A stretch of DNA of 64,000 bases, from NCBI RefSeq assembly GCF_963675165.1, contig NC_087381.1:2914001-2978000 (forward strand). Reading direction: 5' to 3'. Positions 26,296 to 57,369 of the stretch are shown one piece after another (position 1 is the stretch's first letter; the number at the start of each line of letters is the position of its first letter). This DNA is from Halichondria panicea. Its lineage: Eukaryota; Porifera; Demospongiae; Suberitida; Halichondriidae. The notes below the pieces were generated by a model. It made no database searches. It saw only the letters and a list, made by a program, of their open reading frames with translations, and was not told where the DNA came from. The position numbers and the translations under genes are program-made.

Positions 26296-29200
26296 TTAGT
26301 TCCTGTTGAACAGCACACTAGCTACATGGTATACCAATAGCATCTGGTATATAAGAAAGTGACCACACATTTTTGCTGTGTCCATTGCTGTTTCTCCCAT
26401 CTGCAAAACATGTTAAAAGATATGTTTTAACGTTGATTTGCAGCAAATTTACCTTATCCATAACTTTTGGATCGGCTCCATTTTTGAGGAGAACACTGAC
26501 AATCTCTCTTTGTCCCTTGATAACTGCTAGCTGTAGAGCTGTCGTTCCTCTGCAATTCTGTGCATTAATGTGAGCTTTTGCAGCAATCAGTAGTTCTACT
26601 ATAGCGAGATGATCTTCTTGGGCAGCTATCATTAAAGGAGAGAATCCACTCTGTAAAATAGAAGTTTAGAAAAGCATAATTATAGAGGAGATTGGTCACG
26701 ATTGTTAATTAATCTTCTAATTTTCTTTGTAACCGGCCTCCAAACTTGCAGAGAAAGTAGCTATCCTAGCTAAGCCAAAGGCTGCAAACGATCATAGCCT
26801 TTTATACTAGTAGAAAATGATGCTAATAATATACTCAGTGACACTAGAAAGTGACTAGCATAGTCACATATACTCGAAGCAATGAGCCAGAAACTAAGAT
26901 TAGTCACAACTTCCAGTTGTTGCTGCACTTTCCTCCTGTCTCAATGAGGCAGGTGTAGCAACGATAGTTTTAAATTACTACGATTCATAGACTAACAGGA
27001 GACGTAATACAACAGATAAACGATGCAAAATAAAATAAAAGTGCTGACTCAGTGGGGTTCCTTCCATGGCTTCTGTGCTGTGCATTTACTGTAGGAATTG
27101 GAGGTTACAGAAGATTAATTAACAATCGTGACCAACCTCCTCTGGTCCTTATAATAGCACAACATGCAGTCAGGACAAATAAAATTAGTTTACATGATAT
27201 GCATGAACTGATCACCTTGTCTGGCGTGCATACACTAGCTCCAGCAGTGATTAGCTGTTGAACAATATCTCTGTGCCCATGGAAACAGGCTAACCATAGG
27301 GCAGTACGTTTCTCCTGCAAAATTTCAACAGTAATGTTCGATGACACTAAAATTATTTTCGAGGATAAACACTAAACATAATTATGGGCTATTAAATGGT
27401 TAAAGCACTAAGTGACTCACTACGCCCTGAGTGTTTGGATCAGCTTTATTCTGTAGAAGAACCTTCACACACTTTAACATTCCTCGTCTAGCTGCTAGAT
27501 GAAGTGCCGTTACATTGTCCTATATGATTACAGTTTACAAATAGTTTATACAGACGTGGAAAATAATAATTACACCTTCATTTTTTCATCCACGTGCACA
27601 CCAGGCTCATTTAGTAAGAGCTGTAAAGCTTCACTCTGTCCAGACCTTGACGCAAGATGAAGTGGTGTTCTTTCAATCTATTATCAAAATTATTGTGTCG
27701 TCATTATAATATACATGCATCATGACATTGTGCATACGCACCTTGTCCCTGCAGTTAACATTGCATTTTACTTCTTTTAATAAGAATGTGACCATTTTTA
27801 AAACCCCTGATTCAGCAGCAATGTGGAGAGGGGAAGAACCATTGAGTTGATTTTCCTCATTGACATCAAGCAGATCATGTTGTGAAATCTCATCCATAAT
27901 GTACTTCACAACATCCACGCTGTCACTTGCACAACCATAATGTAGAGCAGAACATCCACGATTATCTCTACTAGACGGATCAACTTGCCAAATACCGATA
28001 AGGTACTTCAAAATATGTATATATAGGTGTCCATTGAGAGCAGCATGATGAAGTGGTGCTGCACCAGTGATGCATTGAGTTGCCGCATTGAATTCCATGT
28101 GTTCAGTGAAGTACCTAACAATGTTGAGATGTCCACAACTTGCTGCAATGTGAAGTAGAAAATGAACTTCCCCATTACAAGACTTAGAATCGTAGTTTAG
28201 AACTTCAATCAGGAACCGTACTTGGGTTATTACTCCATTGAACACGGCTAAATGAAGCTTATGAAACGGTATGCAAATGTGTACCGGGAAGGAGATAATG
28301 CCTGTTGGCGAAGCTGTGTCGTTAACCGGCAAGGTGTGAGTTGTTGATGATGTTTGGCTAGATGGCCCTGTGCTGTATCCAGAGTCTGAATGAAAACAGC
28401 TTGATTTCACTGCTATTGACTCATCGTCGAGTTCCAGATGTGGCTGAGTGCTTTGATTGTCATAGTTGTTGTCCAAGTCAGCATCTAAATTTACAAAAGA
28501 AACCGTGTAGCGTGATTGTGGTCAATGCATGCACAAGAAAACTTACCACTATCTGAACTGCATGAAATGGCATCCTAAAAAAAAGAGAGTATAAATAATG
28601 TCGTGCATATACAATCATCGCTAAAGATTTTATGTGCACAGTGAAATTTTAGTACCGTAAGACCTCGATTTAAAGCGACACTTTTTAACAATTACAAAGC
28701 CAGAGGTCGCTTCATTAGGAGGTTGAAAAATTTACATTGAAGTCCTGGTGTCCCATATTTAGAGGGTCGCATCTAATTAGAGGTAACTTTACAGAGTCTA
28801 ACTTGCCTCGATTTCAGGCCGCTTAAAAACAATGATTTTCCCAGAGGGCTACAGTCGAGGCTAGAGAGTGGCTACATTTACCTCTATTTCGAACGCGACA
28901 TTAAAAAATAATTGTCAACGCAGCTGTCGCTATTTTTAGAGGTCAGAAAATTGCTGAAGCTCCTGGGTGTCGCATATTTGGAGGGTCGCCTTAAATCGAG
29001 GTCTTACGATACTATAAAATTAATACTGATCAGCAGTTATTTTCGAGGCACTAAATTTTGCAGATTGCCCAAACAAAACATTTTCGAGGATAGCGGTTCA
29101 AATGACCACACCCCTACAGTAACACCAATTTTTGAGGCACTAAATTTTCGTATTCTGGGTCAATCCTCGAAAACCTCCTAAATTTAGTGCCTTGAAAATA

Positions 29201-32200
29201 ACCAGCTATACAGTAGTCAGTTAAAGTGGCCTTTCTTTCCCATTTTTCCCACGGCACTTATTCTTCCCTGATCTCAGATATAGAATATAAAGCCGAAAAT
29301 GTTACCTCATCTGTTTTCTTGGGCATAATATCATCGCATGATATACCAAGAGATGGGGACAAATGCTTAGGTAGAGGGGATTGTTGTCTCTCTCCATCCT
29401 TCTGTTTGGATGGTGGTTCAAGTAGCTTTTTCTCCTGAGATGTGGTTGTTTGTTGAGGATCCAGGTCTTCAGTTATGAGCGGCCCTCTTTCTTTAGATAT
29501 GGGATATAGCTGTGGTTTCTTTTCCTCGGTCGTAATATGTTGTTGCTCTTGTGTGTGGGATGACTGGGGCAGATTTTCATGAGGGGTGGGGGTTGGCTGA
29601 GCATCGATGTTTTCGTCTTCGTCTTGCCTGAGAAACATAAGCAGAACAAAATTTAATTACACTACCACATCATGAAGCTGACTTATGTACCTTTTGTTTT
29701 CCTTTTTGTCAAATGGGAGAAGCCTCGCTCCAATCGCATTGAGTGCCGACTGTTGAGAAGGGGACAGAGGGAAGATATGCTCAGCAACAGCTGCGGAAAC
29801 CAAGAAGTGTAACTCAACACAGCCTTTTCTGACGGAGCAAAGTTGTAAAGCATTGAATTCCAGACCTAAGATTTCAGCAAATTTGTCTTGTAGAACTATA
29901 ACCCCGTTTAGTGTTAATGTCGACTCTGTGCATTTGAGTTTAAACACTTTGGCTGTCTTACGAGACTTGCATGATGAAAAAGCAGATGGAGGAACTTCGA
30001 AAACACTTCTCTGGCAGAAGGTTTTTAAATCATCCAGGTATCGTTCAAGCATTTTGTGATCAATAGCAGAACCTGAGTGTTGAATAAGCAGCTCAATGAT
30101 TTGGTAGTTCAAAAATGAGATATAGTTGTAAGTTTGAAGTGTGGAGAATATTCTGGCAAGGCTTTTTGCCGCAAGGACTATCTCTTTGTGCTCAGTATCA
30201 AGTGCACTCACACCTTCATCGTTTGGAAGAACAGCACTCAATACACAATCTCGAAGATTATCTAAGGTATCTTGTCCTTCAATTGATTTCCGAATACATA
30301 CGGAGAATTCAGAAAACTTGATAATAATCTTTCGTGTATCAAGTATCAATTTTTCTTCCAAATACTTGACATCTTCATCATCAAGACCAGTAACGTCAAG
30401 ATAAGGAAAGAGGGAGGTAGTTTCGAGAGATTTTGTCTTCCTGGGGCAACCTTCTTTAGAGAAGAATTGTTGTGGAGAACACTCTTTGCAGTAAGGACAT
30501 ACAAAAATGTCACGATTATCAGTGGCAGAATGAAACGACTCATCTCCAGAAAAGACGTCTCCATCATCTGCTAGCTCAACTGGGTGGTCAGGTTGGAGTA
30601 TGTCACTCTTTTTTAGTGAGTCTTGCAACCACTTGGCAGAGGAGAGTGTTTCCTGGGTACAGCCTCCTGGTATACTGAATTCTGAGAATGGAGAATAATT
30701 TATATATAGTGACCAATATCATAGACCAACCACGTGGAATACTCACCTTCAAGTTCCTTGTGTGTGTCAGATGATTCTTGCATACTAGACGACTGAGCTG
30801 GAAGTGAATTGAATAAATCCTCAGTCCAGTTCTCTGATTTCAAAGATTGGGTCGTGGTTGTGTCATTCGGTATTGTACGTTCCTGCATGGAGATAATCAG
30901 GTAAGAGTATAGGTGTGGCTAATTATTCCAGGATAAAAATCATCACTGAAACATATAATTATAATAGTCTAGAGATACGAAGTGTACACACAAACTCACT
31001 TTTAAGTACTGACAGATTTGATCGGCAATCTCTTCCTTCCTTAACTTTACCAACATCTCCAGAAGCGTCTTGAATGTCGCTTGTTCAGGATTCTTTCCTT
31101 TCCAGATTTTCAAGCACTTAATCACGGCTAATTGATTAGTTTTTGCACCTTCGACATCGGTTTGTTTACCAGTGGTTAATTCCATCAAATCGACATAAAA
31201 ATCAACATTATCAAAATAGGCAGTGAAACAGGGTATGTCTACTTGTTGAATTTGACAGTCGACTTGAGAAGGACTGAGTTGATATTTGTCCAATAGCCCT
31301 TGAAGAACTGTACTCACTGCAGTTCATTGTAAACATAATAATTACTGTATAATTACAACAGGTTGTTAAACAGAAAACAGCGTAGGGCATGATTAATAAC
31401 ATTTTACGCACTGGTGACAAACATCGAAAGTGGTAAAAGGAAGTGAAATTAACTTGCATACCATACTGAGTTAAACCTGAATTAAGTAACTCCTTCCAGG
31501 TTAGAGGAGGTCCTGATTTCAACGGTGATCAAGTATTTCACGAAGACAGTTGCTGTCATCATTAGTCGACTGCTTTCTGATGCTATCTAGTGTGACAATA
31601 TGAGCTTGCCCAATATCTGCTCTGAGAGTAGCACAGCATGAGCTTCATTTAAATCATCCGGTGTGAGCACTATAATGTATATACCGTAGTTAAACGTTAA
31701 CGGGCGTCACCGTCCTCATCATTGCACGGAAAGAGAATGGGAACCAAGCCTATAGCTACAGTTTTGTTCTGGCCTGTTACACAATAGCAATATGAATCTC
31801 ATTATTTAAGTGGGTGTTAGCCAATAGTAATGCACCTATCAATGCAAATCCCCCCTACCCCCCTCCTAGTTGGGCGGAGTCCAACCACGCTTCGCTAGTG
31901 GTTGGGTCTCACGACAATATACGTTTTTGTTCCACTGGTACTTGAGGCAGAGTATGAATATTGTTTAATCTCAAGTGGCTGACAACCGCATGGCTCAGGG
32001 TGCGATACAATAATTATTTGTACGCTGTGTCTAGCTTGACTAGATCTATAGCTATAACTGTTTTAGGGTGCAAGAAAGACCCCAGAGTTTTTAGAGAAAG
32101 TGGAAGGATACTTCAGCCTGTAAAACAAGATTTAGTAGAGCCTAGAGGCATGCAGAAATAACCTTTTTTCATAATAGAGCTAGATCTAGCACAAAGAGAG

Positions 32201-34236
32201 CTATATAAGACTACCCTATAGGCTTCTGGAAAAGATGTTCGATTACCAGAGAAGGCACAGGTTTTGTCCAAATTAATCTTATTACACCAAAACTCAAAAC
32301 AACAAAAACAAGTCCTTTTAATACAAAGAATCTACAACTTCAAACTGTTCAAGCTTCATTTATAGATAGTAAGATAGACCATGGTTCTTTTCTAGTAGCC
32401 TAGATATCTGGCAGGAGCTGTTCATGCTGTTGCTGCATCTCTGGAGAAATACAGTGAGCCATCTTGCCTTGTCAGCTAAATTGAGCTGTAAGGTTTCTCT
32501 CTTGAACGCTGCAATCTGATTGGGCTGCAAGTTTTCTGCAGTTGGAACAAAAACGTATATTGTCGTGAGACCCAACCACTGCAAGTGGTTGGACTCCGCC
32601 CAACTACCCCCTCCCGGGACAAGGGGGGCTTTGTCAATTATATATATGAGGTGCAAAAGACTCTCCCCCGGGGCTATTTTATTTGACAAACCCCTGGCAA
32701 ATACCCGGGGCATGGCAGTTGAACACAATAATAATTGCAATATTTTAGTATACAGACGACTTTACAAGTTCCCACCCCTATAGGGCTAAGTTTTACTAAC
32801 AAAGCTCCCCCCTTGTCCTGGGAGGGGGGTAGTGGGGCTTTGCATTGATAGGTGCATAAGTGACTGTGTGCCTCTCAGTCAATAGCATGTACAAAATTCA
32901 CACGTGGTAAAGTTAAGTGGGTGTGTCCATTTGAAATACTGCAATCTGATTGGAGCCGGTGGAATTCCACGGGCAGAACAAAACTGTATTGGGTCCCGTT
33001 CTCCTTTCGTACAACAGTAGAGGGCGGCGCCGGATCTAGTTAAGTACCAAACCACCCATATCAAATAACCGCCCATCCCATACTTTTGCCTGAAATAGTG
33101 CCATCGCAGAAGCGCGCATGCGTATAATTAGGTCAAATGTCAACATGATGCAAGATTTTTCATTGATAAATAGCTATATACATCAGAAATATTGCTAGAG
33201 ACTTATGCGAATTTGACAGTCGACTTGAGAAGGACTGAGCTGATATTTGTCCAATAGCACTTGAAGAACTGTACTCACTGGTTGAGCAGATGATCCTAAT
33301 GACAGATATGCTATAACAATTGAATAGAAATTAATATCATTACACCAAATAGCACCATGCAATAAATAATTTACAAAACGTCGATAGAGATCCTCCTGTC
33401 TAATAATTGCTTTCCCAAAATTGTGTGATATTGAAGCAGTTTTTGGATAATTATAACAGCATGAGTGTAGGGCAATACATAAAATTGTACGCACTGACAA
33501 CAAATGTAAATGCAATTAGGAATCTTACGTATTAAATTAACAAGTATCTTGCATACCATACTGAGTATTAAGTAACTCCTTCCAGGTTAGAGGAGGCCCT
33601 GATTTCAAACGGTGATCAAGCATTTCACGAAGACAGGTGCTGTCATCATTAGCATACCGCTTTCTGATGCTATCTAGTATGACATCCTCAACATGTAGAG
33701 CTTGTCCAATCTCGAACCATTTGTTCTGAGAGTCGTACAGTTTAGTGTGAGCTTCGTTTAAATCATCCATTGTTAGTGCGTCATCTGTATATATAATACA
33801 AAAAACTGGCCAGCACTATTATTATATGTACATACCGCGGTACATGTAGCTACTGTATAAGAGTACCCCATGCATGTAGTTAATTGGTGCCAACATTAAA
33901 GCTATAATTACCCATTTGAGGCCCAGGATTGCTCTCAACGTCTCCAGCTAACAGCAAGAGGTGGGCAAGAGAGTGGAGCAACACAGCAATCAGTATCACC
34001 AGAAGACCAACGTTCCTTGTACGTTTTAGGAATTTGCTTTTATCTTGATAGCTCAGAAATGTGAGAATATACAATAAAAGCAATCCTCCTTGAACCACTT
34101 TCGCAGTAGTACCCACTGTGTCACTAAAGTGTAGAGGCTGGTGTTTTATCGAGGGAGCTTTACTGTGTGGTCGCGATCCCCTCCCACCACTGGACAGCCC
34201 AATGCGAGCTCTCCACAACTCTACAGAGATCCCCAT
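26296..34236 (-). CDS. Gene A: 2A-leader, two death-like domains, helical/beta domain, ankyrin repeats
   Basis: Phase-consistent model: 34236-33912 (leader and 2A), 33784-33557 (death-like 1), 31316-31000 (death-like 2), 30882-30747, 30681-29691 (helical/beta domain), 29627-29306 (Pro/Gln/Glu-rich linker), 28574-28547, 28484-27742 (ankyrins), 27677-27576, 27519-27421, 27314-27216, 26650-26453, 26400-26296 (TAA). It sums to 3693 bases, 1230 residues. The ATG at 34236 is the first after an in-frame TGA and is conserved in gene C. Joining 33557 to 31316 skips two decayed exons; the phases match (G|TG). Death domain evidence: W-x5-A-L, ILDSIRK, CLREMLDHRL, LTWKELL. The last ankyrin half-repeat is ETAMDTAKMCGH. 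The role is inferred as an intracellular signalling or immune-type adaptor. If the 5' part belongs elsewhere, the gene would begin at the second death-like domain. Confidence 0.75.
26684..27143. mobile_element. Fold-back MITE in a gene A ankyrin intron
   Basis: The left end agaggagattggtcacgatt followed by gttaattaatctt is inverted at the right end as aattaacaatcgtgaccaac plus ctcct. About 460 bases, non-coding. A related end (cagaggaggttgg) occurs near 49864, 50341 and 61064, so this is a family. Confidence 0.8.
28653..29012. mobile_element. MITE with CCGTAAGACCTCGATTTAA ends
   Basis: The left end ccgtaagacctcgatttaaa is inverted at the right end as ttaaatcgaggtcttacg, with TA next to the left end. 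The inner half-repeats of the right arm recur (agaggtcg and gagggtcgc blocks). It lies in gene A, between the linker exon and the short exon 28574-28547. A further inverted element (cgaggcactaaatttt type) follows at about 29040-29215. Confidence 0.75.
31458..31690 (-). pseudogene. Decayed copy of the death-like domain 1 exon
   Basis: This matches the intact exon at 33557-33784 over most of its length (gatgatttaaatgaagctca; ctagatagcatcagaaagca; cacctcctctaacctgg-type blocks). It has lost bases around the conserved Trp region and carries a one-base deletion in the cttgatcaccgtt block, so no single frame is open. A degraded piece of the next exon's 5' part follows at about 31320-31425. Together these are a relic of an older N-terminal copy inside gene A. 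Confidence 0.8.
31831..32856. mobile_element. TAA-flanked inverted-repeat element (PIF/Harbinger-like) in gene A
   Basis: Ends of about 36 bases are inverted: tgcacctatcaatgcaaatc at the left and gctttgcattgataggtgca at the right, continuing into C-rich (ccccctaccccc) blocks. TAA flanks both sides (31828-31830 and 32857-32859). A 3-base TWA target is typical of PIF/Harbinger elements. A second inverted pair lies inside (gttgggcggagtccaaccac near 31872 and its inverse near 32570), so it may be nested. No intact transposase was seen. Confidence 0.7.
33223..33493 (-). pseudogene. Truncated copy of the death-like domain 2 exon
   Basis: This starts at the normal acceptor (33493) and follows the gene C exon 54737-54214 closely, but homology stops at about 33211, after SQVDCQI, before the death-fold core. 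No donor follows and the frame ends four codons later. Compared with gene C it has nine extra bases (three codons, His-Asn-Phe region), an in-frame indel. In the gene A model this exon is skipped. Confidence 0.75.
33919..33960 (-). other. 2A-type ribosome-skipping motif in gene A
   Basis: Codons for LLLLAGDVESNPGP; the final Pro is residue 106. It matches the D-V/I-E-x-N-P-G-P 2A consensus in full, including the upstream Leu-rich stretch and Ala-Gly. Known 2A peptides stop peptide-bond formation between the last Gly and Pro while translation continues. Here that would free a 105-residue leader with two hydrophobic segments (about residues 50-62 and 76-96) from a product beginning Pro-Gln-Met. 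The exon ends two codons later, so leader plus 2A form a separate exon module. Activity is inferred, not shown. Confidence 0.88.
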
Positions 34237-37700: not shown

Positions 37701-40700
37701 CGAATACTCGTGCCAGGCCACGTGCCTTGGGTAATGATGACTAACCTTGTCTTTGCTTTGCAGGTCACATTCAGCTATCATTTGAAAGGAAAGTTTAAGC
37801 TCCTTCAGCAGAAATTGAATCAAATCCAGGTTACCAGATTCAGCAGCAAAATGGATAGGTGCATTTCCATCGATGGCCTTCTCATTCACATCGAGTAGTT
37901 CGTGTTGTTGAATCTCAGACATCAAGTACTTTACTACATCGATGTTCCCACTTCTGCAGGCATTGTGTAGTGGAGAGCAATGATTGTTGTCCACACTCGT
38001 GGGATCGACCAGTTGACTGCCGACAAGGTACGTAACAATATGTAGATGTCCATTGAGCGCGGCAAAATGAAGTGGCGTTTTTTTGTTCGTGGATTCAGTT
38101 GCCGGATTGAATTTTCTGTCTTCAATAAAGTACCTAACAATATTGAGATGTCCATAAGCTGCTGCAGTGTGAAGTAGAAATTGACCTTGCTCAACAGAAT
38201 TGTTGCAGTATAGAACTTCAATCAGGAACCGAACTTGGGTTATTTCTCCATTAAATACGGCTGAATGAAGCTTGATTGGTGGTGGTACTTCATTCCATTT
38301 GGCATGAAGGTGTATGTATGCTGGGAAGGAGTTAATGACTGACAGCAAACTTGTCGCACGTAAAGCTATGTCGTTCAACTGCAGGAGAAAAATAATTATG
38401 ATCGACAAACATGGTGGCTGGCTGTAGGGTAAAATACCTGTGGATCTGCGTCGAGGTCAATTTCAAATTCGGTATGTACTGTCGATGAGGTTTGGCTAGG
38501 TAGACAATTGGATAACACAGTATTATATCCAGAATCAGAATGAGAACTCTTTGATTTCACAGCTATTGACTCATTGTCAAGTTCCACAGATGGCTGAGCA
38601 CTTTGATTGTCATCGTTGTCCGAGTCAGCATCTGAGAGTACGAGAACAGAACCCGTGCAGCTAGATTATAGTGCATGCATGTACACTCCATCAAGCACCT
38701 AGTATATATGTATATCTGTCAATGCTTCAAAAAAGTGTACGTAAAACTTACCACTATCTGTACTGTGAGAATTGTCATCCTAATTAAAAAAGAAAGACAG
38801 TAAGTACACCATACGATTGCACACACATGCATGCATCAATGATAACATTACATCACTGATCATATCCAGCTTTACATCTTAATGGTAAAATAGAGAAACT
38901 TATAATTATATACCTGTAGTTGGAAATGATAGTCCCCGCAGTCCAATTGGATTACCCCAAGATCTCTTATTTCTGCTTCTTGATTGGGTGTGAGTGGGAA
39001 GATGTCGGGAGGAATAAAAGAGGGTACCTCAAACACAAGTTGAACGCAGCCTTCATTAATTCCACGAAGTAATAACGCATTTGCTTCGACTTTGAGTATT
39101 TTTGCTAGATTTTCTTCAAATTGTTTCAAGTAGAGAAGCTCACATTTGTCGTAAGTAGAGTCGAGCTTCACGATCATCTTAGTGCTATCTTCTCTGTAGC
39201 CCGAACCAAACTTTTTCGGGTACTGAATCCTTCGTTTAGCATATTTTTCAAATTCTTTCACATAAGCTATTAAGTTATCCTGGTCCTCCTTACTTCCAAG
39301 ATGGTCAGTGAGATATTTAATCAAGCCATACGAAAAATATGAAACGTAGTCTCGGATAATATCCCATACATCGTAGAAATCGCTAGCTGCACGTAATTCT
39401 TCTCGCTTGTCTCGAAACAAACACTGGTTAGGGCCTTTAAATACTTTCTGGTAGCAGCTCACATCCATTAAACAAGACGTCAGCTTCTTCAAAACAATTC
39501 GAGTTTCCAAAGACTGCTGAAGTTGGAGCACAAACGTTGAGAAAGCTTTATCCATTTCTAGCGAGTCTAGTTCCCACTTGGCAGAGGAGGGTGTTTCTTG
39601 GGTATAACGTCTTGAAACACTGGAATCTGAGAATAGGGTACAAGAGTGAGACATCTAAATGTTTCTGACCCCCCAGTCTTGCAGTAATCTTGAGGGAGCT
39701 ACGTAAATGCCTGTTCACTAACTACTATGGTCAATAGGTTTTGCATGCAAGCAAAAAAAAGTTGTGACAGCGCTTTGTTTGCAGCTAATGCTAGCATTTA
39801 GTGTTCAAGAGACAGGGGGTATTATGAGACAGGGGGGGGACAGGGGGATATTATGAGACAGGGGGTATTATGAGACAGGGGGATATTATGAGACAGGGGG
39901 GTATTATGAGACAGGGGGGGCATTATGAGACAGGGGGATATTATGAGACAGGGGGGCATTATGAGACGGGGGTATTATGAGACACCATTGCAATTAACGC
40001 TAATTGGCTACTCTAACATATCTGATACTAAAATAATTATAGTGATTATTCTGTCCTATAAAAACTGTTACTCCTGTTTTAACAGGTAGTTAATTTTACT
40101 ACAAAACATAATTGATTCCGTCTCATAATACCTTCTTATACCCTACATGTATATATACAATAATTACGGTGATTGATAGTGTATAATGTGTAACTCTATA
40201 TTAAAAGAACTTCAACTCAGCGGCATGTGAGAAACAAAATCTCGATCTCAATACTAGACTGACCGTCAGGTGAGTTAGATGCTCCTTGAATACTAGACTG
40301 TGTTGGAAGTGAGGTGATGATATCCTCCTGTCAAAGAAGGAGTGGTGGTGTCATTAGGCAACGTAAACCATGAGGTAAGGCTAAGCATCACTGAAGCACC
40401 GGTATAATTGTTATAGAGTGTACACACAAGGTCACCTTCAAGTACTGACAGATTTGATCGGCAATCTCTTCCTTCCTTAACTTTACCAACATCTCCAGAA
40501 GGGTCATGAATGTCACTTGTTCAGGATTCTTTCCTTTCCAGAGTTTCAAGCACTTAATCATGGATAATTGATTAGCTTCTGCACCTTTGACATCGGTTTG
40601 TTCACCAGGGGTTAATTCCATCACATCGACATAGAAACCAACATTATCAAAAAAGGCAGCCAAATATGGTATGTGCGTTTGTTGAATTTGACAGTCGACT

Positions 40701-40730
40701 TGAGAAGGACTGAGTTGATATTTGTCCAAT
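34757..40730 (-). CDS. Gene B: death-like/helical/ankyrin paralogue, 5' end lost in assembly gap
   Basis: Exons: 40730 (gap edge)-40436 (death-like 2), 40327-40264, 39626-38914 (helical/beta domain), 38779-38752, 38631-38438, 38378-37746 (ankyrins), 37424-37323, 37251-37153, 36823-36725, 36461-36267, 36194-35997, 35772-35575, 35515-35318, 35118-34918, 34861-34757 (TAG). All joins keep frame. The helical/beta domain has FYDVWDIIRDYVSYFSYGLI, LTDHLGSKEDQDNL, GCVQLVFEVP and IFPLTPNQEAEIRDLG. Ankyrin exons are 99, 102, 195, 198 or 201 bases, all phase 0, so each is one or two whole repeats. The C-terminus MGITAMDTAKRCGHF matches genes A and D. Leader, 2A and death-like domain 1 are expected upstream but fall in or beyond the gap. 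It is the most complete ankyrin array in the window. Confidence 0.85.
36926..37138. mobile_element. Fold-back repeat with CAAGGGCGTAT ends, in gene B
   Basis: The left end caagggcgtataaaaagaga is inverted at the right end (tctctgattttatacgctct). Related copies lie at 52903-53297 (cleaner, with caagggcgtatgaagagaag at both ends) and about 63755-63920 in the homologous intron of gene D. It sits in the ankyrin intron before exon 36823-36725. Confidence 0.65.
39808..39990. repeat. G-rich minisatellite upstream of the gene B helical exon
   Basis: About ten units of roughly 18-20 bases of the form tattatgagacaggggg, with a variable G run. It lies in the intron between 40264 and 39626. The related phrase gtctcataataccttcttat occurs nearby at 40118 and again at 53888, both upstream of homologous exons. 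Confidence 0.9.
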
Positions 40731-40930
40731 NNNNNNNNNNNNNNNNNNNNNNNNNNNNNNNNNNNNNNNNNNNNNNNNNNNNNNNNNNNNNNNNNNNNNN
40801 NNNNNNNNNNNNNNNNNNNNNNNNNNNNNNNNNNNNNNNNNNNNNNNNNNNNNNNNNNNNNNNNNNNNNNNNNNNNNNNNNNNNNNNNNNNNNNNNNNNN
40901 NNNNNNNNNNNNNNNNNNNNNNNNNNNNNN
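40731..40930. other. Assembly gap (200 Ns)
   Basis: A run of exactly 200 Ns cuts the second death-like exon of gene B; true size is unknown. By comparison with gene C, about 1 kb (the rest of this exon, death-like domain 1 and the leader/2A exon) should lie here. The sequence right of the gap is unrelated repeat DNA. Confidence 0.98.
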
Positions 40931-45200: not shown

Positions 45201-48200
45201 ATATGGTAAGGTATGTATATGCCAAGTTTCGTTAAAATCGGAGGGGGTGCTCAATTTTTTTGTGTTGAGTTGACATGGAATGTCCTAAGTAGAAGCTAAT
45301 AGAAGCTATACAGCTGCAAAGACACGCACACACAGAGCTTTATACTGTATTCTTCGTGTGACTATATATACGCCTCGATGCATAATAATACTCACATGAA
45401 CATTTGGATTCGCCCCTTTCTGAAGAAAAAGTTGTACACACTCCAAGTGCCCTTGTACGACTGCCAAGTATAGAGATGTGAGATTGTCCTGTATATAATT
45501 ATAATAGTCGTGTACAATACACGTACGTGTGGAGTGATTGAATTACCCTACATGTATGTACGATATCTCACTATGTACCTTCATCAACGAGTCCACTTGT
45601 ACGCCAGGTTCCTTCAATAACAGTTTTAGAGCTTCAGTGTGGCCATATATTGCAGCATTCTGAAAAGGCAACCTTCCTTTCTGCAAAGTAAATAAATATA
45701 TTATTATTAGGAGCAATAAGCCACCAATAAAACAAAATGTTAGTTGCACTTTCCACGGTGCGATGATGACTAACCTCGTCTTTGCTTTGCAGGTCACACT
45801 CAGCTCTCACTTGAAAGGAATGTTTAAGCTCCTTCAGCAGAAATCGTATCAAACTCGGGTTACCACTTCCAGCAGCAAAATGGATAGGTGTAATTCCATC
45901 GATGGATTTCTCATTCACATCGAGTAATTGGTGCTGTTGAATCTCAGATATCAAGTACTTTACTACATCAATGTTCCCACTTCTGCAGGCATTGTGTAGT
46001 GGAGAGCAATCATTGTTATCCAGACAACTACTTGTAGGATCCACTTGCTGAGTACCGACAAGGTACTTAACGATGTGTAGATGTCCATTAAGAGCAGCTA
46101 GATGAAGTGGTGTTTCTTTGTTCATGGATTCAGTTGCTGCATTGATTTTCTTATCTTCGATGAAGTACCTAACAAAGTTAAGATCTCCACAAGCTGCTGC
46201 AGTGTGAAGTAGAGAATGACCTTGCTGATTACAAGAATCAGAGTCGCAGTGTAGAACTTCAATCAGGAACCGTACTTGGGTCATTTCTCCATTGAACACG
46301 GCTGAATGAATCTTGAGAGGTAGTACTTCATTCCATTTGGCATAAAACTGTATGGACAAGTTTACTGGGAACGAGTTAATTCCAGACAGCAAACTTGTCA
46401 GACGCGTAGCTATGTCGTTAACCTGCAAAAAAGGCATAACTTATGATCAACTGACATGCATGGTGACTGTATAAAGTAAAATACCTCTGGGTCTGTGTCG
46501 AAGTCAATTTCAAGTCCGGTATGTACTGCTGATGAGGTTTGATTAGATGGCACAGTATTGTATCCAGAGTCAGAATTCGAACTGCTTGATTTCACGGCTA
46601 TTGACTCATTGTCGAATATCACAGATGGCTGATTGCTTTGATTGTCATCATTGTCCGAGTCAGCATCTGAGAGTATGCATGAGAACAGAAATCGCATGAG
46701 TTATATAGTGTTCTTATCATGCAAGCAGCTATATAATTTAGGGTTACTATTATAGACGGGTAGTAATTTTAGCGTTTCAGATTAATTTTTCTCAGTTTTT
46801 AAAGGATTTGAAACAAATTCGTTAGCTGCATGCACAATATTTTGTCAATAAGTATGACTGGTTTAAGGTTGAATGGAAACTTTGGAGGGCTAGCTTGCTT
46901 AGTTAGCATACTCTCAAAAGTAAATTTTCATGAAAAAGAAAAGAAAAAAGTTTTAATGAGATTCATAATAAATTAATGAGTTATTAGCATGGACACAATT
47001 TAGCGTAAATTACAAATTCGCTAAAATACGCTAAAATTAGTACCCATTTGTAATACCGTAAAGTCCGAAATTTTCATGGCACTTATATTTCGTGGAATGG
47101 CACAATGTTCGTAGAATGACTGCTTACCGGAAGCCACGCCTTTAATCTTTGCACGTTATAGCAGATAATTCTAATTAAAGAGCAATTTTCGTGGACTTAA
47201 GTTTCGTGTAGCATTGCTAACCCAAGAAATCAGCGAAAATTAAGTCCATCGAAAATTTCGCGCTATACGGTAGTAACACTATATGGTAATAGTTTTATAT
47301 GTAAAATTAATGCTTTAGAAAACTTACGTACCACTATCTGAACCTTGAGAATTGGCATCCTACATGTTAGAAAGATAATAATTATGCATTAAATGTCAGT
47401 GATCGTCAAAATTATCTTTATGGGTACACCCATGCATTACCGTACATTCGTAAAATACGCCCATGTTGAATATACGTCTGCCCCCTCTTTTGCTACAAAG
47501 TTCTTTTGCACGAGGATATTTTGACTATCCTTGTGCCTAAAATTCTTACAGAAAATGGTGGGTGTATTTTCACGAGGGTACAGTAAGGATAACTTTACAG
47601 TACTCATCATTCAGATACGTATCTCAATAGTACATCGGACAGATATATTTACCTGTACTTCGAAATGATAGTCCCCGCAGTCCAATTGGATTACCCCAAG
47701 ATCTCTTATTTCTGCTTCTTGATTGGGTGTGAGTGGGAAGATGTCGGGAGGAATGAAAGAGGGTACCTCGAACACAAGTTGAACGCAGCCTTCATTAATT
47801 CCACAAAGTATTAATATTTTTACATCAACTTCAAGTATTTTTGCTAGATTTTCTTCAAATTGTTTCAAGTAGAGAAGCTCACATTTGTCATAAGTAGAGT
47901 CAAGCTTCACAATCATCTTAGTACTATCATCTCTGGAACCACAATCAAACTTCGTCGGGTACTGAACCCTTCGTTTCGCATACTCTTTAAACTCTTTAAC
48001 ATAGACTAAAAAGTTGTCCTTGTCTTCATCACTTCCAAGATGGTCAGTGAGATGCTCAATCAATCCATACGAAAAATATGAAAAATAGCCACGGATAACA
48101 TCCCATACATCATAGATATCGCTCGCCTTTTGTAGATCCTCTCGTTTCTCCCAAAACAAACACTGGTTAGGGCTTTTGAACACTTGCTTGTAGCAGCTCA

Positions 48201-51200
48201 CATCCATTAAACAAGTGGTCAACTGCTTTAAAACAATTCGACTTTCCAAAGACTTCCGAAGTTTCATTACCAAATTTGAGAACTTTTTATCCATTTCTAG
48301 TGAGTCCAGCTCCCACTTGGCCCATTTGGCAGAGGTGAGTTTTTCCTTCGTACATTTTCCTGATACCACATTAGATTCTGAGAATAGAGAAATGATTGAC
48401 GGTGAATAAAAGCACCACAGGTACTGATGCCTCGGTGGAGGTGTCAAAGCTACGTAACATAAAGCTACCAAGAGTTCATAAAGAGCACTGTATAGTATGG
48501 CAGCTGTAGTACAAACCACAGTACGTTACATACTATGTCACTCTCAAACCACATTTTAAGTGGGTGTATAGGTGTAGTGGTTAATTATGACATATCAGCA
48601 TACACATGCATACGTGGCAGCTGCATGTAGCAGTCTACACACACACAAACACACTACTGTATACCTCGCTTACGCGGACGTACCGAGGCATAATGAAGAC
48701 GTGTCAAAGCTACGTAACATAAAGCTACTAGCTAATAACGAGCTGCGCTGTGCTAATGCCTCTGCCTTTCGCTCAAAAGTATTGGAGTGTTATAGCATAT
48801 AGATAAACGAATAGAAAGGAATTGGAAACGCCTCACGTGATCGATTGCAATCTCAACATGTAACGTCACACCCTCAAAATATAGGCTAGTTACACTCCAG
48901 AATCTATGCACTGGTGAGCTCTGCCGCTTTTCTCTTCAGCCGATTTCTACAGGGGAAATCCAGATATGCACTGGGTTTCTAGCATCCACATGGTTTCCCA
49001 GATAGCTCCAGCTGATGTTCTAATGCTCACTGGCTGGGTTTGTGCTCAAAACAGCTACATTCAGTTTAAGGTTTTGTTCCTATAGCTCACTTTCGCAAGT
49101 CTATTACTTACTGAATGCTGCATTATATGAAAGCCTATATTCAGGGAATAACCATCAATGCTGCATTCTATTATAATTGGTAACTACTTGTAGTAAATTT
49201 TCTCTATCATGTTTCCGTTCCTTCACAGTGACTTCTAAGTTAGGGTGAGTATAGCGTTTAACGTGTGTTTATAGTAGAACAGGAATATGACATTTATTTT
49301 TTGTATTGCTTTAACACCTGGATATGAGCCATGAATACGTTTCGTTACATACATTTTTGACGCTGTGTGTGTATATATCCTCCGTAATAATTGTAAGTAT
49401 GTCATGTTTGTACGTACGTATTGTGTTAATTTTGTGATTCATAATTAATAATTATTACAGAGGAGTTATCAATGACAAGCCTCTCCCAGAGACCCAGGAA
49501 AAAATGTTTATACAATCTTACAACAATGTATTAGACAATAATAATCGATCTAATTAATTTTTCAAAACAATTAAAAATTATGTCCAATGTTGTAGTGTCT
49601 CTCTACCTTTAATACACTTTGCTTCTTGCTTCGAGCAAAATTGTACTAGTGTAACTACATCTATTATTTTAACAAGTTGGACACAACAACATATCCTCCT
49701 CTCATTATCAGTTACACACAATTATCATTATCAATTATAAGTTCAGCAGATGCATCTTCTTCTTCAGGGATGTAAACAGTAGCATGCTCCACTAGAGTTG
49801 AACCTCCATTACAGTCTATTGACATTCTAGTCCCACATAATTTTACAGATTCTATAGGGTCGTTGTCAGAGGAGGTTGGACACGCATCATCATGGCGCCT
49901 TCAGTCATGTGATAATTATAAACCTTTATAGAATTCTTTTGAGGTCAAAGGTGAGAATGTAAAAGCTTGTCAGTGCAAGTAAGAGCTAGAGAACGCTAAA
50001 GAGAAATAGATTAATGGTGCTCTGACCTCCTCTGCTCATATAGATCATAATCCTGTTAGATAAAAATTGGAAAAGTGCCAAAAAAATCTAAATACTAGTC
50101 TAGATCCATCTTGGACTATATTTTCAGCAGGGTGAGAGGGCGGTGGGAATGCTACTGATATCACTACACTAACAAATGACGTGTACGGAATTTTTGGACT
50201 AGACCACTTCTGGCTACTTGCAGTGTCTCTGTACAGCCTGCAGAACAGTGGAGAATCGAGGTGCCTAATGGTGCCTAATCGGTCATTTTAATTAGATTCT
50301 TATGAGCGCACGTGATAAAACCTGACGATGGATGACGCGCGTCCAACCTCCTCTGGGTCGTTGTTATGGGCTTGCAGCGGAAAAAGAGTTAATTTCTCAA
50401 CATTTAACCCTTTCCCCGTTGAAGCCGTCATATGACGGCCACTCTAGTGGTCATTTTCAAAAATTCTTTGTGCACGCTGTGTTCGAGCTATGTGCACGCT
50501 GTAGGTACCAGCACATGCGCATTGAGCTGCTCTTTCACATGGTATCTTTAATATGCTCCCTTGTGGTACGCTTTGTACAGTAATGTCAAAAGAAAAGTGA
50601 CCGTTTGATAATGTTTCAAGATCTTTGTAAGTACAACCTCAGTGGGGTTCTAGAGTAGCTAGACAGTGAGAATATCGATGCTTACGGCCTTGTTGAGTGA
50701 GAGGACAGTGACTGGGATCATAGCTAGATAAGAAGCTACCTTAAGCTAGAGCCTGAAGGCCTGAGGAAGAAGCTCTTGTGATGTACCAACTTCTTGGATC
50801 TGGTATAAGTCTAGAGTAGCATCTGTAGTCTTGATAGCTTCAGTATAACTGTATTTAGGCTAGTTAGTACAGCATTGGACATCATGAGCCACCATTGAAC
50901 TTGTAAACTGTGTGTAGGTGCATGGAGAAAACATTTCCCGGGAAAAGGGTGTCTGCTGATACGACCTCGCAGAGAACGTTTTGCAGATCCTGATTGAACC
51001 ATGTCACCGTGAGAACATTGAGAACACTTATTTAGCATAATTATTTAGCCACTCTGTGCCCTCATACAATAAAATTATTACATAATTGTGAATGTTTGTA
51101 AACAATTGCTAATTAGTGGGGGTGGTCAGTTGCTAGGTAACGAAGATGGTGTCAAGATACCTCTGGGGTCTGCGCTACCTGTAGGAAATAGTTACAAGTC

Positions 51201-54200
51201 ATTTCAATGTATGGTTCATGATATATGAATTTTAAAACAAATTGTGATTTATTCTGTATTTTCTTGTTTTAAAAAACGGGGAAAGGGTTAACCTCCCCCG
51301 CACGGAATTTCACACATCTAATAGAGCTTCCTGTCATGTGACCGTAATAATACATTGGCCAGATAGGTGTTTCCAATCCATTCCTATTCGTTTTTCTATG
51401 GTTATAGTAGGGGGAATAAGTTTTTCTATAATGAATCTTAAATTAAAATATTTGCATTTTAAAAGAAAGTGATTATCTATTACGAGTGATGCAAGCTGCC
51501 CTGTGCTAATGCCTCTCTCCTTTGTTTTGCTTTTGCTCAAAAACTATTAGAAGAGGTGAAGAGGTATAATGTTACGTTATTATTGTTGATTGCAATTGTT
51601 GACAGAATTGAATTCCCCACAAGAGAGGGAAACAGAAGCCTATCTGATGGCTTGATAAATAATCTTCAACAATACTGATCGAAGCAACGAGTGTTGCAAG
51701 CGTGCGCTTGCTAATGCCTCTCGCCATGTTATACTTTCGCTCAAAGAGTATTAGTGTTATAGTAGTTTCTATAATATTAAAAGTTAGCTTATCTATATAA
51801 AGTCACTGAGAAGAAAAGACTTACCTATTTACATGCATCTATTGTTGTATTATGTGGCTTACCAGGACCTCAAGAAAGAAGAAAATTGATTCTTCTAGGA
51901 TCTGTAGTTCAGTGTATAAAATATCTAAGAAGAAAAGACTTGTGTACGTGCATATTGTTATCTATATAATAGTTAGACACTGTTTTGGAGGTGTCTATGG
52001 GATTTAGAAGCCCAAAGGCACTGATTTAGTATCCCGAGCGTAGCGAGGGTACTAAAGTGGCTGAGGGCTTCTAAATCACATGGACACCGACAAAACAGTG
52101 TCTAACTCATTTAGATACTAGTGCGCATGCGCAAACGCTTGACTACAATACAATTACTTGACAACGGAATACTATAGGTATACTAAGTAAATTTGCAGGT
52201 ATACTAAGCCCCATAGTATACCTGCTCTGAGGCACTTTTCCCATGTACTTCCCATGTACTTCCCATGTAGATCTTATCAACTAGTGTCTAAATTGTTATA
52301 TGGTAGTGTTTTGTGGCTTACCAGGCCTTCAAGAAAAAGATGATTCTGCCAGGATGATAGATCTGGATATCACACATGAGGAATGAGCGCGCATGCGCAT
52401 TACATCCACAGGAATAACTAAAGGGTGTGTCCAAAGAGATCAATTTCACAAATGGCTACTGCTAGCTAGCTGTTTTAACAGATACTTTCTGAGTCTTGTA
52501 GCTAACAAAAAGCTAGCGCTTTAGTGCAAGGTTAACTCATATGTTGAATAGAAAGTTTGTGCGGACAGATGATGCTATGAAAGATTCTGAAGAGACTGCA
52601 ACAGCCTTCAATGTGAGTCAAACTAGCCATAACTCGAGAAAGAAGCTTTAGTTTGCTAATCCACGAATCAAAATCCAAGAGAACGTGGCTAGAAGCGTAT
52701 AGAAGCTGTTAGTTTTCGTCGCATTGCAACCGTTGAGCAGTTACAGCTGGAACAGACACACACACAGTCCGCTTTATCGTATCCCTCGTGCGGCTACGCC
52801 TCGAGGCATAATTATATAAGTATAATTATAACTGAGAAGAAAAGACTTACGTACTAATTGTATATGTCACCGTTTATGGAATGTTATCAGTGACAATAAT
52901 ACCAAGGGCGTATGAAGAGAAGAGGGCATGCAACTACAATCTATCAAATTACAAATGGGAGGGGCGTGTGCACTAAAAATAGATTGCACGTGCACTTACT
53001 CCATAATAGTCACCAAGCAAGCTAGCTAGCTAGCACTGTACTGTTAGGTAGAGTTAGCCACAAAAGTGAAGAGAAGGACCAATGCTATAGACTAGAAGTA
53101 GCCATTGATCAATTCTAAGCTCTTCTAAATTAATTTTGCGGTACATTTCTAGTATAACAGTGTTCACGCCCACTATCACGCCTATTTACGTGTGGGCGGT
53201 TGGCTAAATATAGTATATCCTGCTGACTCATCAGTTTTTTGACGACTACGCAGTATACATTGCGAGTTGCATGCCGTCTTCTCTTCATACGCCCTTGATA
53301 ATACCCACCAGAAAATACTAACCCTGACACTGCAAAAAGGACACTGAAGTTGCAGAATCAGACCCCCCACAAAAACTTACCCTCCAGAAAATCATACCCA
53401 AAGTTAAACAGGTAAAATACACCCGTGCACAAAAATTATTACCCTCGAGGAAATCATATCGTGTTGGTGCCTGGATATAGCAGGGCCGTAGACAGCGGGG
53501 AGCCAGGGGGGGCCAACTGCCCCCCTGGCATTCTAGACGTGTCAAATTTATTGATTTGCACATCCAATGCTTTAGTGATTAGAATCATGAAATGTATATG
53601 TGGGCAGGGCTATCTGATGCGCATTTGACTGCGGAAAATAAGTTACGACCTTTTTTTAAGGAAAAATTCTGAGCTCCACAGGAAGCAGGAGCACCTTCCT
53701 AGTTCAAGCTACCTTGTTTTAGCTGCTCTAAGTTGGTGCCATACTCAGAGAACATGAAATAACAGTTGACGTGCTTTAATTTTGGAAAAAATATACTAGA
53801 GAGGTATAGTGCTATTACTATAAATAAATGCAGACAGAATAGCTGAAGCACTCCTGTTTTAATCAGCTGTCTCATATAATTGGTTCCGTCTCATAATACC
53901 TTCTTATACAATAATGATATATATACAATAATGATAGCTAGTGTATAATTATGTGTAACTCTATATTAAAAGAACTTCAACTCAGCGGCATGTGAGAAAC
54001 AAAATCTCGTTCTTAATACTAAACTTACCTTCAGGTGAGTTAGATGCTCCTTGAATACTAGACTGTGTTGGAAGTGAGGTGATGATATCCTCCTGTGTCA
54101 AAGAAGGAGTGGTGGTGTCATTAGGCAACGTAAACCATGAGTTATGGTTAAGCATCACTGAAGCACCGGTATATAATTATAATTATTGTTATAGAGTGTA

Positions 54201-55485
54201 CACACAAACTCACTTTTAAGTACTGACAGATTTGATCGGCAATCTCTTCCTTCCTTAACTTTACCAACATCTCCAGAAGGGTCAAGAATGTCGCTCGTGC
54301 AGGATTCTTTCCTTTCCAGAGTTTCAAGCACTTGATCACGGCTAATTGATTAGCTTCTGCACCTTTGACATCGGTTTGTTCACCAGGGGTTAATTCCATC
54401 ACATCGACATAGAAACCAACATTATCAAAAAAGGCAGCCAAATATGGTATGTGCGTTTGTTGAATTTGACAGTCGACTTGAGAAGGACTGAGTTGATATT
54501 TGTCCAATAGCACTTGAAGAACTGTACTCACTGGTTGAGCAGATGATCCTAATGACAGATATGCTATAACAATTGAATAGTAATTAATATCATTACACCA
54601 AATAGCACCATGCAATAAATAATGTACAAAACGTCGATAGAGATCCTCCTGTCTAATAATTGCTTTCCCAGATATTGAAGCAGTTTTTGGATAATTATAA
54701 CAGCATGAGTGTAGGGCAATACATAAAATTGTACGCACTGACAACAAACGCAAATGCAATTAGGAATCTTACGTATTAAATTAACAAGTATCTTGCATAC
54801 CATACTGAGTATTAAGTAACTCCTTCCAGGTTAGAGGAGGCCATGATTTCAAACGGTGATCAAGCATTTCACGAAGACAGGTGCTGTCATCCTTAGCATA
54901 CTGCTTTCTGATGCTATCTAGTACGACATCCTCAACATGTAGAGCTTGTCCAATCTCAAACCATCTGTTCCGAGAGTCGTACAGTTTAGTGTGAGCTTCG
55001 TTTAAATCATCCATTGTTAGTGTGTCATCTGTATATATAATACAAAAAACTGACCGGCACTATAATTATATGTACATACCGCGGTACATGTAGCTACTGT
55101 ATAAGAGTACCCCCATGCATGCATGTAGTTAATTGGCGCCAACATTAAAGCTATAATTACCCATTTGAGGCCCAGGATTGCTCTCAACGTCTCCAGCTAA
55201 CAGCAAGAGGTGGGCAAGAGAGTGGAGCAACACAGCAATCGATATCACCAGAAGACCAACGTTCCTTGTACGTTTTAGGAATTCAGTTTTATCTTGAGAG
55301 CTCAGAAATGTGAGAATATACAATAAAAGCAATCCTCCTTGAACCACTTTCGCAGTAGTACCCACTGTATCACTGAAGTGTAGAGGCTGGTGTTTTGTCG
55401 AGGGAGCTTTACTGTGTGGTCGCGATCCCCTCCCACCACTAAACAGCCCAATGCGAGCTCTCCACAACTCTACAGTGATCCCCAT
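42246..55485 (-). CDS. Gene C: 2A-leader, two death-like domains, helical/beta domain, ankyrins; 3' truncated
   Basis: Exons: 55485-55161 (leader, 2A), 55028-54801 (death-like 1), 54737-54214 (death-like 2), 54092-54029, 48377-47653 (helical/beta domain), 47359-47332, 46666-46485, 46422-45775 (ankyrins), 45680-45579, 45488-45396, 44668-44468, 43080-42883, 42560-42366. All joins keep phase (1171 codons). Death-like 2 carries VIKCLKLWKGKNP and TFLTLLEMLVKL; death-like 1 has KWFEIGQAL or RWFEIGQAL and LTWKELL. The 5.6-kb intron 54028-48378 is full of repeats. Compared with B and D, one 99-base ankyrin exon and the final three exons are missing. If exon 42560 is last, the frame runs through the donor GTGAGA for 39 more residues to a stop at about 42246. 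An alternative upstream ATG at 55509 gives eight more residues. Confidence 0.75.
42641..43962. mobile_element. Three ACCGTATAGCG-family MITEs in gene C introns
   Basis: Three elements with accgtatagcgggt at one end and its inverse at the other: 42641-42807, 43421-43625 and 43726-43962. Their interiors differ, although the first two share the gtaggc-tggctta and cacgaaattttaacg blocks. Exon 43080-42883 sits between the first and second. Fragments of the same family occur at 8978-9060 and in the duplicated prosaposin introns. Confidence 0.8.
47055..47271. mobile_element. ACCGTA-family MITE in gene C
   Basis: The inverted ends accgtaaagtccgaaatttt and aaaatttcgcgctatacggt bound an interior close to the copy at 10754-10968 in reverse orientation. 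It lies in the intron between 47332 and 46666. The two similar copies 36 kb apart suggest recent activity of this family. Confidence 0.8.
50404..51291. mobile_element. TTAA-flanked piggyBac-like non-autonomous element
   Basis: The ends TTAACCCTTTCCCCGTT and AACGGGGAAAGGGTTAA are perfect 17-base inverted repeats including the TTAA. A TTAA target with CCC-starting ends is typical of piggyBac elements. The left interior has cgtcatatgacggc. A - strand frame at 51038-50811 is open but too short and unlike enough that I do not call it a transposase. Confidence 0.75.
51973..52290. repeat. Dispersed repeat copy 1 (shared with 62510-62790)
   Basis: It starts ttttggaggtgtctatggga and contains gatttagaagcccaaaggca; the inverse cttctaaatcacatggacac lies about 90 bases on. 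The copy at 62510-62790 in gene D starts the same way. Gene B lacks it in the homologous intron, so insertion followed the duplication. Confidence 0.75.
55168..55209 (-). other. 2A-type ribosome-skipping motif in gene C
   Basis: The same LLLLAGDVESNPGP codons as in gene A; the final Pro is residue 106 counted from the ATG at 55485. The nucleotide sequence across the motif is identical to gene A, while the leader upstream differs at several residues (Ser/Thr, Ser/Phe, Tyr/Ser, Leu/Ser changes). Exon length (325 bases) and exit phase are the same. The predicted split is again leader-Gly / Pro-death domain protein. Confidence 0.88.
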
Positions 55486-56128: not shown

Positions 56129-57369
56129 CAGTGCAACAACCAAAGAGAGTAGATTTTTTTTTATATTATTTTTTTTCACATTTTGTGGCATATCTTCTGA
56201 AGTAAAAGTGATATGATCTATTTGAGTGCAGGTACTGAAAGTTCAATTATTGGCGCTTCCATTGGACCACCACCTGTTACATCATATGACATCATCACTA
56301 TGAAATGGCTGTCTGAAGATGTGTACCTCCGAAAATATGTTAGGAATAGAAGTAGCTTATTTGTTTGAGTTAAGATCTGAAATTTATTGTGTATGTACCT
56401 GACTATATTGCTCATCTTTTGAGCTTCAACGGAAGTCTGGGCTGCTAGTAAGTTCTGAGAAATACTGAATTTTGTTGTTTTTTGGTGGCAAATATGTTAG
56501 GAATACAACTTTCGATTTTATGCTAGTTAAGGTCTGATTTTTGAGGAGCATGTACTACAATAGCATAGAATTCATCTGTACTAACTTACAGGAGCTAGAC
56601 AAGTTTCATCTTTGCTAGAGCGGCCCTTCTTGTCAAAAATGGTGATTTTGCTCCGTTTTGCTACTTTTGCTGACGTATGCAATGATATTCATTGATTTGT
56701 GACATCACAAATCATCTTGTTGTTATTTGCTACATCCAAAGGTCATGTGATGTCTACCTGCAAATACACAGTTGGTGTTGGTCATTCTGTGTCACAGGGG
56801 CGTGGTAATTGAGCTTACTACGTAGCCAAATCGCCCCAAAAGTCATAAAAAGCACTGTTTTTGACAAGATGGGCTGCTCTAGCAAAGAAGAGGCTAGCCT
56901 AACTCCTGTAAGTTAGTACAGATGAAAAGTACACTATTGTAGTACATGCTGCTCAAAAATCAGACCTTAACTAATATAAAATCGAAAGTTGTATTCCTAA
57001 CATATTTGCCACCAAAAAACAACAAAATGCAGTATTTCTCAGAACTTACTAGTAGCCCAGACTTCTGTTGAAGCTCAAAAGATGAGCAATATACTCAGGT
57101 ACATACACAACAAATTTCAGATCTTAACTCAAACAAATAAGCTACTTCTATTCCTAACATATTTTCGGAAGTACACATCTTCAGACAGCCATTTTATACT
57201 AATGATGTCATGTGATGTAACAGGTGGTGGTCCAATGGAAGCGCCAATAGTTGAACTTTCAGTACCTGCACTCAAATAGATCATATCACTTTTACTTTAG
57301 AAGATATGCCACAAAATGTAAAAAATGTGTACCAAAAAAAAAAATCTACTCTCTTTGGTTGTTGCACTG
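56129..57369. mobile_element. 1.24-kb near-palindromic fold-back element
   Basis: The ends cagtgcaacaaccaaagaga and its inverse are flanked by TA on both sides. The arms are about 500-550 bases each and stay highly similar to near 56650 and 56870, leaving a loop of about 200 bases. Each arm carries the same 65-codon open frame (inverse copies at 56415-56218 and 57082-57279), explained by the palindrome and not by a gene. CAGT ends with a TA target suggest a Tc1/mariner-type non-autonomous element. Confidence 0.88.

Follow-up and report, generated by a model that had tools for sequence, protein, structure and literature searches.

Results

Two paralogous genes open with a 2A leader exon

The window, that is, the whole stretch of 64,000 nucleotides of Halichondria panicea DNA analysed here, carries two paralogous genes on its reverse strand, A and B, which share 95% identity across 1.1 kb and have the same first exons. 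The features of the two genes, and of a neighbouring run of N, are as follows.

33912..34236, minus: gene A leader exon; ATG at 34236; 108 codons, from MGISVELWRARIGL... to ...NPGPQM, plus one base
33919..33960 (core 33919-33942), minus: gene A 2A block, LLLLAG-DVESNPGP
33785..33911, minus: gene A intron 1, 127 nt, GT...AG, phase 1
33557..33784, minus: gene A Death-domain exon 1, the first coding exon after the 2A, with a six-helix death fold
30946..31323, minus: open frame with an intact second Death domain, probably part of gene A; Pfam Death E 5.2e-5, above the curated cut-off
27673..28521, minus: ankyrin-like open frame downstream of gene A, assigned by likeness; part of it has 72.5% DNA identity to 37834-38273
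55161..55485, minus: gene B leader exon; ATG at 55485
55168..55209 (core 55168-55191), minus: gene B 2A block, LLLLAG-DVESNPGP, the same 14-mer as in gene A
54801..55028, minus: gene B Death-domain exon 1; protein 91% identical to that of gene A
54214..54521, minus: gene B Death-domain exon 2, joined in phase 1 from exon 1; Pfam Death E 0.0015, below the curated cut-off
54029..54092, minus: gene B short exon after the second Death domain, assigned from splice sites and open frame only
47614..48525, minus: long open frame, probably gene B, with a weak TRADD-N-like match (E 0.0055, below cut-off)
40731..40930, no strand: 200 consecutive N, immediately upstream of the Death2 exon of a third gene (40388-40730)

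The gene A leader exon, read from 34236 down to 33912, terminates in LLLLAGDVESNPGPQM, and the 14-mer LLLLAGDVESNPGP at 33919-33960 of the minus strand is its 2A sequence. The first-pass annotation had placed a full 2A consensus at the end of this leader and had joined it in phase to a death-like domain. Both statements hold: the DVESNPGP cores of genes A and B conform to (D/G/C/N)(V/I)ExNPGP, a GT lies at 33911 directly after the gene A leader exon, an AG precedes the next exon, which starts at 33784, and the two exons join in phase. The 2A is N-terminal on a gene that, judged by its domains, would be of immune type, and a Death-fold exon follows in frame. The six residues upstream of the core, LLLLAG, match by sequence likeness an L-rich class of 2A sequences (Li et al. 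2026, PMC12846837; here and below, as given in the part of that text available to us).

Further downstream in gene A, the Death2 exon nearer to the leader is truncated (approximately 33268 down to 33209), and homology to gene B ends at 33209. A partial second copy of the Death1 exon lies at 31447-31667, ahead of the intact Death2 exon, with 77.9% identity to 33542-33776; the truncated exon and the partial copy look like signs of exon duplication. The segment at 37834-38273 that the ankyrin-like frame resembles is itself inside an ORF with an Ank_2 match (E 2e-29). For the third gene, the leader and the Death1 exon would lie in the N run at 40731-40930 or in an assembly gap.

No NACHT domain was found in the nine window ORFs scanned, and the window is absent among the 102 NACHT places listed genome-wide. 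The same nine ORFs yielded no endonuclease or reverse transcriptase. The leader frame stops soon after the 2A and Death exons come next, which is not the layout of a non-LTR retrotransposon 2A ORF. Elsewhere in the window, a unit of approximately 1.5 kb is repeated in tandem in about three copies with 97% identity (729-5500), and an inverted repeat with 489-nt arms, 92% complementary and separated by a 176-nt spacer, occupies 56172-57325.

The 2A block is conserved among window-family paralogs

The window leader, used as a query, found 35 places in the genome, 18 of them near full-length leaders. The motif core is kept in 18 of these 18, a count to be read with the fact that family loci were found with motif-containing queries, so that motif retention is partly built in. 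One of the 18 (L017) has an in-frame TAG stop, and a frameshifted copy (L019/L022) also keeps the core; three decayed leaders (L020, L021 and L028/L029) read SNHGP, SNLEP and SNPEP in place of the motif.

Substitution rates were computed over 17 copies, L017 being left out. The 14-codon block consisting of LLLLAG and the core gave a pS of 0.152 and a pN of 0.023 (pN/pS 0.154), versus a pN/pS of 0.414 for the 92 leader codons before it; the pS value indicates that synonymous change did occur in the block. None of the 79 other 14-codon windows matches it on both low pN and high pS, and one N-terminal leader window has a pN/pS slightly below that of the block (0.147). The sole amino-acid change in the core among the 17 copies is V/I at p13, which the consensus permits. 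The substitution pattern indicates that the block is strongly constrained by purifying selection.

Of the 18 loci, 16 were tested for the leader-Death join, which is in phase 1, GT-AG and in frame at every one; the intron ranges from 46 to 856 nt, and the Death exons fall into two subtypes. The exon and splice structure, together with purifying selection in the paralogs, bears out the earlier placing of the motif in a host multi-exon gene.

2A motifs across the genome precede death-fold domains

We searched the assembly (131,455,214 bases in 39 contigs) with a 23-base DNA pattern for D(V/I)ExNPGP, in which RTN also admits Met. This gave 116 matches, 53 forward and 63 reverse, versus 0.0975 expected by chance from the base composition of the window; a reversed-pattern control gave none on either strand. 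A total of 108 matches were placed (100 listed, plus eight more on contig C14), leaving eight unplaced, and 84 sites were read; the unread remainder consists of those eight and of 24 more sites on C14.

A Death- or CARD-like stretch stands behind the motif in 68 of the 84 sites read, several of these stretches being named from sequence likeness only. The 68 comprise 19 sites of the window family, 7 C11-type, 19 C14-type, 10 C2 and 2 C1 sites, 9 in which the exon with the motif also contains the Death-like stretch, L112, and L084, whose CARD-like stretch is assigned at only 20% identity. The domains behind the 2A are thus death folds, Death or CARD, in part accompanied by NACHT. Six sites are retrotransposon-like (L034, L036, L037, L038, L050 and L094), with Pfam confirming two. 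The letters at hand for the other ten (L045, L052, L053/L098, L073, L085, L091, L092, L095, L099 and L100) hold neither a death-fold stretch nor a retrotransposon. Gene A is no isolated oddity: there are two such genes in the window alone, among 116 genomic matches, and at most of the sites read a death-fold stretch follows the motif.

The retrotransposon-like sites belong to CR1-like non-LTR elements in which the 2A lies just before a PHD finger and an endonuclease; L034 and L050 are those confirmed by Pfam, and L036, L037, L038 and L094 were recognized by eye.

Several gene families carry a phase-1 2A leader

Contig C14 holds 41 motif sites among the 108 placed. A NACHT match follows within 5 kb downstream on the same strand in 29 of them and is absent from that interval in 12; of the 31 NACHT matches taken from the C14-family NACHT search, 29 have the motif upstream. 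Since one large array thus sits on NACHT (NLR) genes, the lack of a visible NACHT domain that had been remarked on for gene A, which stands for the nine window ORFs scanned, is one variant among several. Contigs C7 and C13 carry long NACHT gene arrays with three 2A pattern matches each among the matches listed, which indicates that the leader is confined to a subset of the NACHT genes.

The C14-type loci read number 20 (17 on contig C14, the others singly on C6, C7 and C13), and each carries LLLQSG-D(V/I)E(A/V)NPGP; a Death-like exon lies behind the motif in all of them except L073, and 14 of the 15 loci reached have an in-frame splice in phase 1. The hexamer LLLQSG, which is outside the search pattern, has a pN of 0.000 at a pS of 0.128 (20 loci), and the Death exon a pN/pS of 0.744 (19 loci). 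In the 12 codons before the hexamer (pS 0.025, pN 0.055) synonymous changes are too few to compare. A fast-changing Death exon beside an unchanging hexamer could reflect an arms race.

Upstream of the leader at L074, L080 and L105, a fragment is open in frame with the C14-type 2A leader. By resemblance it may be EHD-GTPase-like; it is possibly a fusion that supplied an alternative leader start.

On C2, a CARD-like exon follows LLLQCGDVESNPGP (LLLQRG at one locus) in 10 of 11 loci, the exception being L045, and all five joins tested are in phase 1 and in frame. Both C1 copies have a CARD-like exon; NACHT was confirmed in one, L064, which joins in frame; in the other copy, neither of the two acceptors tried gives an in-frame join. 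The C11-type leader, MGIGVELWRARIGLFNGG...DVELNPGP, joins a Death exon in phase 1 in two of two loci tested. At nine loci on C6, C10 and C12, the open frame that contains DVETNPGP or DIETNPGP runs on into a Death-like stretch, and no splice is needed. L112, on C13, combines a WRARIGLY leader, DIELNPGP, Death-like stretches (no Pfam match in the one scanned) and a NACHT ORF. In several families of immune-type genes, the exon after a phase-1 leader exon is thus a Death or a CARD exon.

Leader length, hydropathy and database relatives

Up to the end of the 2A, the leaders measure 106 aa in the window family, 139 aa in the C11-type and 143 aa in C1; the C14 value is 121 aa, with the start codon not located. 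By hydropathy, a hydrophobic segment lies close to the release point, 5 to 9 residues from it. A separate segment, 44 to 83 residues upstream, is present in the window, C14 and C1 leaders, and the only segment of the C11-type leader ends 9 residues before the release point. The leader of gene A is hydrophobic, as had been noted; it has two segments, however, not one, the first of which scores weakly in the window leaders (1.51). Given the length of the ribosomal exit tunnel, the near segment is inside the tunnel at the moment of skipping and the segment 44 to 83 residues upstream is outside. On these hydropathy scores, the leader may target a membrane.

The core is intact in 46 of the 50 database proteins with homology to the window leader (those without it are P0002, which reads NPGA, P0017, P0018 and P0019) and in 25 of 30 relatives of the C14 leader; the search profiles contain the motif, so both counts lean towards it. 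In the 41 relatives of the window leader that were read, the middle of the leader is strongly divergent, while most retain both the 2A end and a VELWRARIG-like start. A spliced leader-Death query of 308 aa, in a search limited to proteins between 0.55 and 1.75 query lengths, returned 11 matches; the spliced join is absent from all ten read, which are unspliced.

Discussion

One message, three candidate products

We propose that the leader exon encodes an N-terminal, membrane-seeking leader with an active 2A (StopGo) end. With the ribosome at NPG|P, formation of the Gly-Pro bond would be blocked by the nascent leader inside the exit tunnel; the leader would be released, and translation would continue to give a Pro-starting Death-domain receptor in the cytosol. 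In a minority of passes the bond would form, and the entire receptor would be tethered to the secretory pathway by the hydrophobic segments. A single mRNA could thus yield the leader peptide along with cytosolic and membrane-bound forms of the receptor, in a ratio set by the 2A context. A hydrophobic segment near the release point and another outside the tunnel, together with the viral and sea urchin 2A precedents, make such a dual-product leader the best-supported reading, and we give an active 2A leader with three products (the released peptide, the Pro-starting receptor in the cytosol and, in smaller amount, a membrane-bound fusion) a probability of approximately 0.75. In many immune-type genes of this animal, the ribosome probably releases the leader and starts a second immune protein from the same message. 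Skipping, transcripts, dual location and immune role are all features that we infer from sequence.

An alternative accepts an active, near complete 2A and holds that only the cytosolic Pro-starting receptor matters, the leader being a by-product whose leucines serve the exit tunnel and not targeting. Leucine-rich hexamers do belong to the 2A class itself (PMC12846837), and in the C11-type leader the only hydrophobic segment, ending 9 residues before the release point, is inside the tunnel. However, the separate segment of the window, C14 and C1 leaders lies beyond the 14 residues of the motif, and an MGxxVELWRARIG-like start is kept where leader middles differ strongly. We regard a pure by-product as possible, at clearly less than even odds; it shares the skipping step with our preferred explanation, and the odds of the two overlap.

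The leaders could also be retrotransposon pieces, CR1-like elements with a 2A start having inserted upstream of immune genes, where they would be passengers. The genome does hold ORFs with PHD and endonuclease domains and a 2A just before the PHD finger (L034, L050), but window-family leader exons are followed by Death exons and not by PHD or endonuclease, and the paralogs have kept the motif, the splice sites and the exon phase under purifying selection, which argues against passenger status. We consider this origin improbable as an account of the present genes; an old origin of the leaders from CR1-like 2A elements is possible. Least probable of all is an ordinary signal anchor whose DxExNPGP end is kept for some other reason, without skipping, as the constrained residues are the hexamer and octamer whose role in skipping is established, and the same octamer recurs with different codons and different leaders in several families.

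Beyond the dual-product leader itself, we advance more speculatively, and rather doubt, that the phase-1 2A leader exon is a portable regulatory module shared across death-fold receptors (Death-ankyrin, Death-NACHT, CARD-NACHT and CARD). The skip-or-fuse ratio, tuned by leader sequence and perhaps by ribosome state under infection or stress, would set cytosolic versus membrane-bound receptor, and translation would act as an immune switch.

Significance

2A recoding has been described as mainly a viral mechanism that few cellular genes use (PMC12846837). If our reading is true, it would be a regular means of gene expression in the immune-type genes of one animal, considering that there are 116 matches, that a Death- or CARD-like stretch follows in at least 68 of the 84 read, and that the two families tested show purifying selection. 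Transmembrane segments have been reported on sponge NLRs (PMC12909245, from the part of the text available), and 2A leaders offer a testable explanation for them. The genes also provide material for asking how skipping ratios are set, what roles fused and split receptors have, and where cellular 2As come from.

Comparison with known systems

2A sequences of APE-type non-LTR retrotransposons were reportedly described by Odon et al. in 2013. They likewise lie near the N-terminus, and PHD/endonuclease elements with a 2A exist in the present genome; unlike in those elements, the window 2A is followed by Death and ankyrin frames, the join needs splicing, and no endonuclease is present in the ORFs scanned.

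Viral 2As are grouped by the six residues upstream of the core, the L-rich classes ending in (A/S/C)G and going with D at p12 and S at p15 (Li et al. 2026, PMC12846837); one L-rich motif, motif 6, is active in vitro in reticulocyte lysate (PMC12846837). The present genes share with viral L-rich motifs 2 and 6 the core octamer, a hexamer ending in (A/S)G and D at p12; at p15 the window family has S as in the viral L-rich 2As (PMC12846837), whereas the C14-type family has A or V. Viral 2As split the parts of a polyprotein (PMC12846837); in the present case the gene is a cellular one, and the product upstream of the 2A is a short leader. A profile-based 2A survey of viral and cellular proteomes has also been published (Rao et al. 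2025, Cell Rep. 44, 115822, as cited in PMC12846837).

SpNLR2A of the sea urchin Strongylocentrotus purpuratus (Roulston et al. 2016, PMC4981915, from the part of the text available) is likewise an N-terminal 2A on Death/NACHT immune genes. It skips at approximately 80%, a qualitative estimate from a cell-free system, and targets the secretory pathway when skipping fails; the dual cytosolic and secretory outcome was shown for the urchin sequence (PMC4981915) and is predicted for the present genes. In both animals the leader is hydrophobic and only part of the NLRs carry a 2A (PMC4981915 for the urchin). The urchin leaders are 26 aa long and consist of the 2A itself (PMC4981915), whereas the present ones extend over 106 to 143 aa. 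Of the four leader types scored here, three have a separate hydrophobic segment, unlike SpNLR2A; several families share a VELWRARIG-like start, and in four families a phase-1 intron follows the 2A. The present leaders are also found on Death/ankyrin and CARD genes. Within the literature searched, the nearest precedent is the 2A signals of sea urchin NLRs, and the present leaders are a different form.
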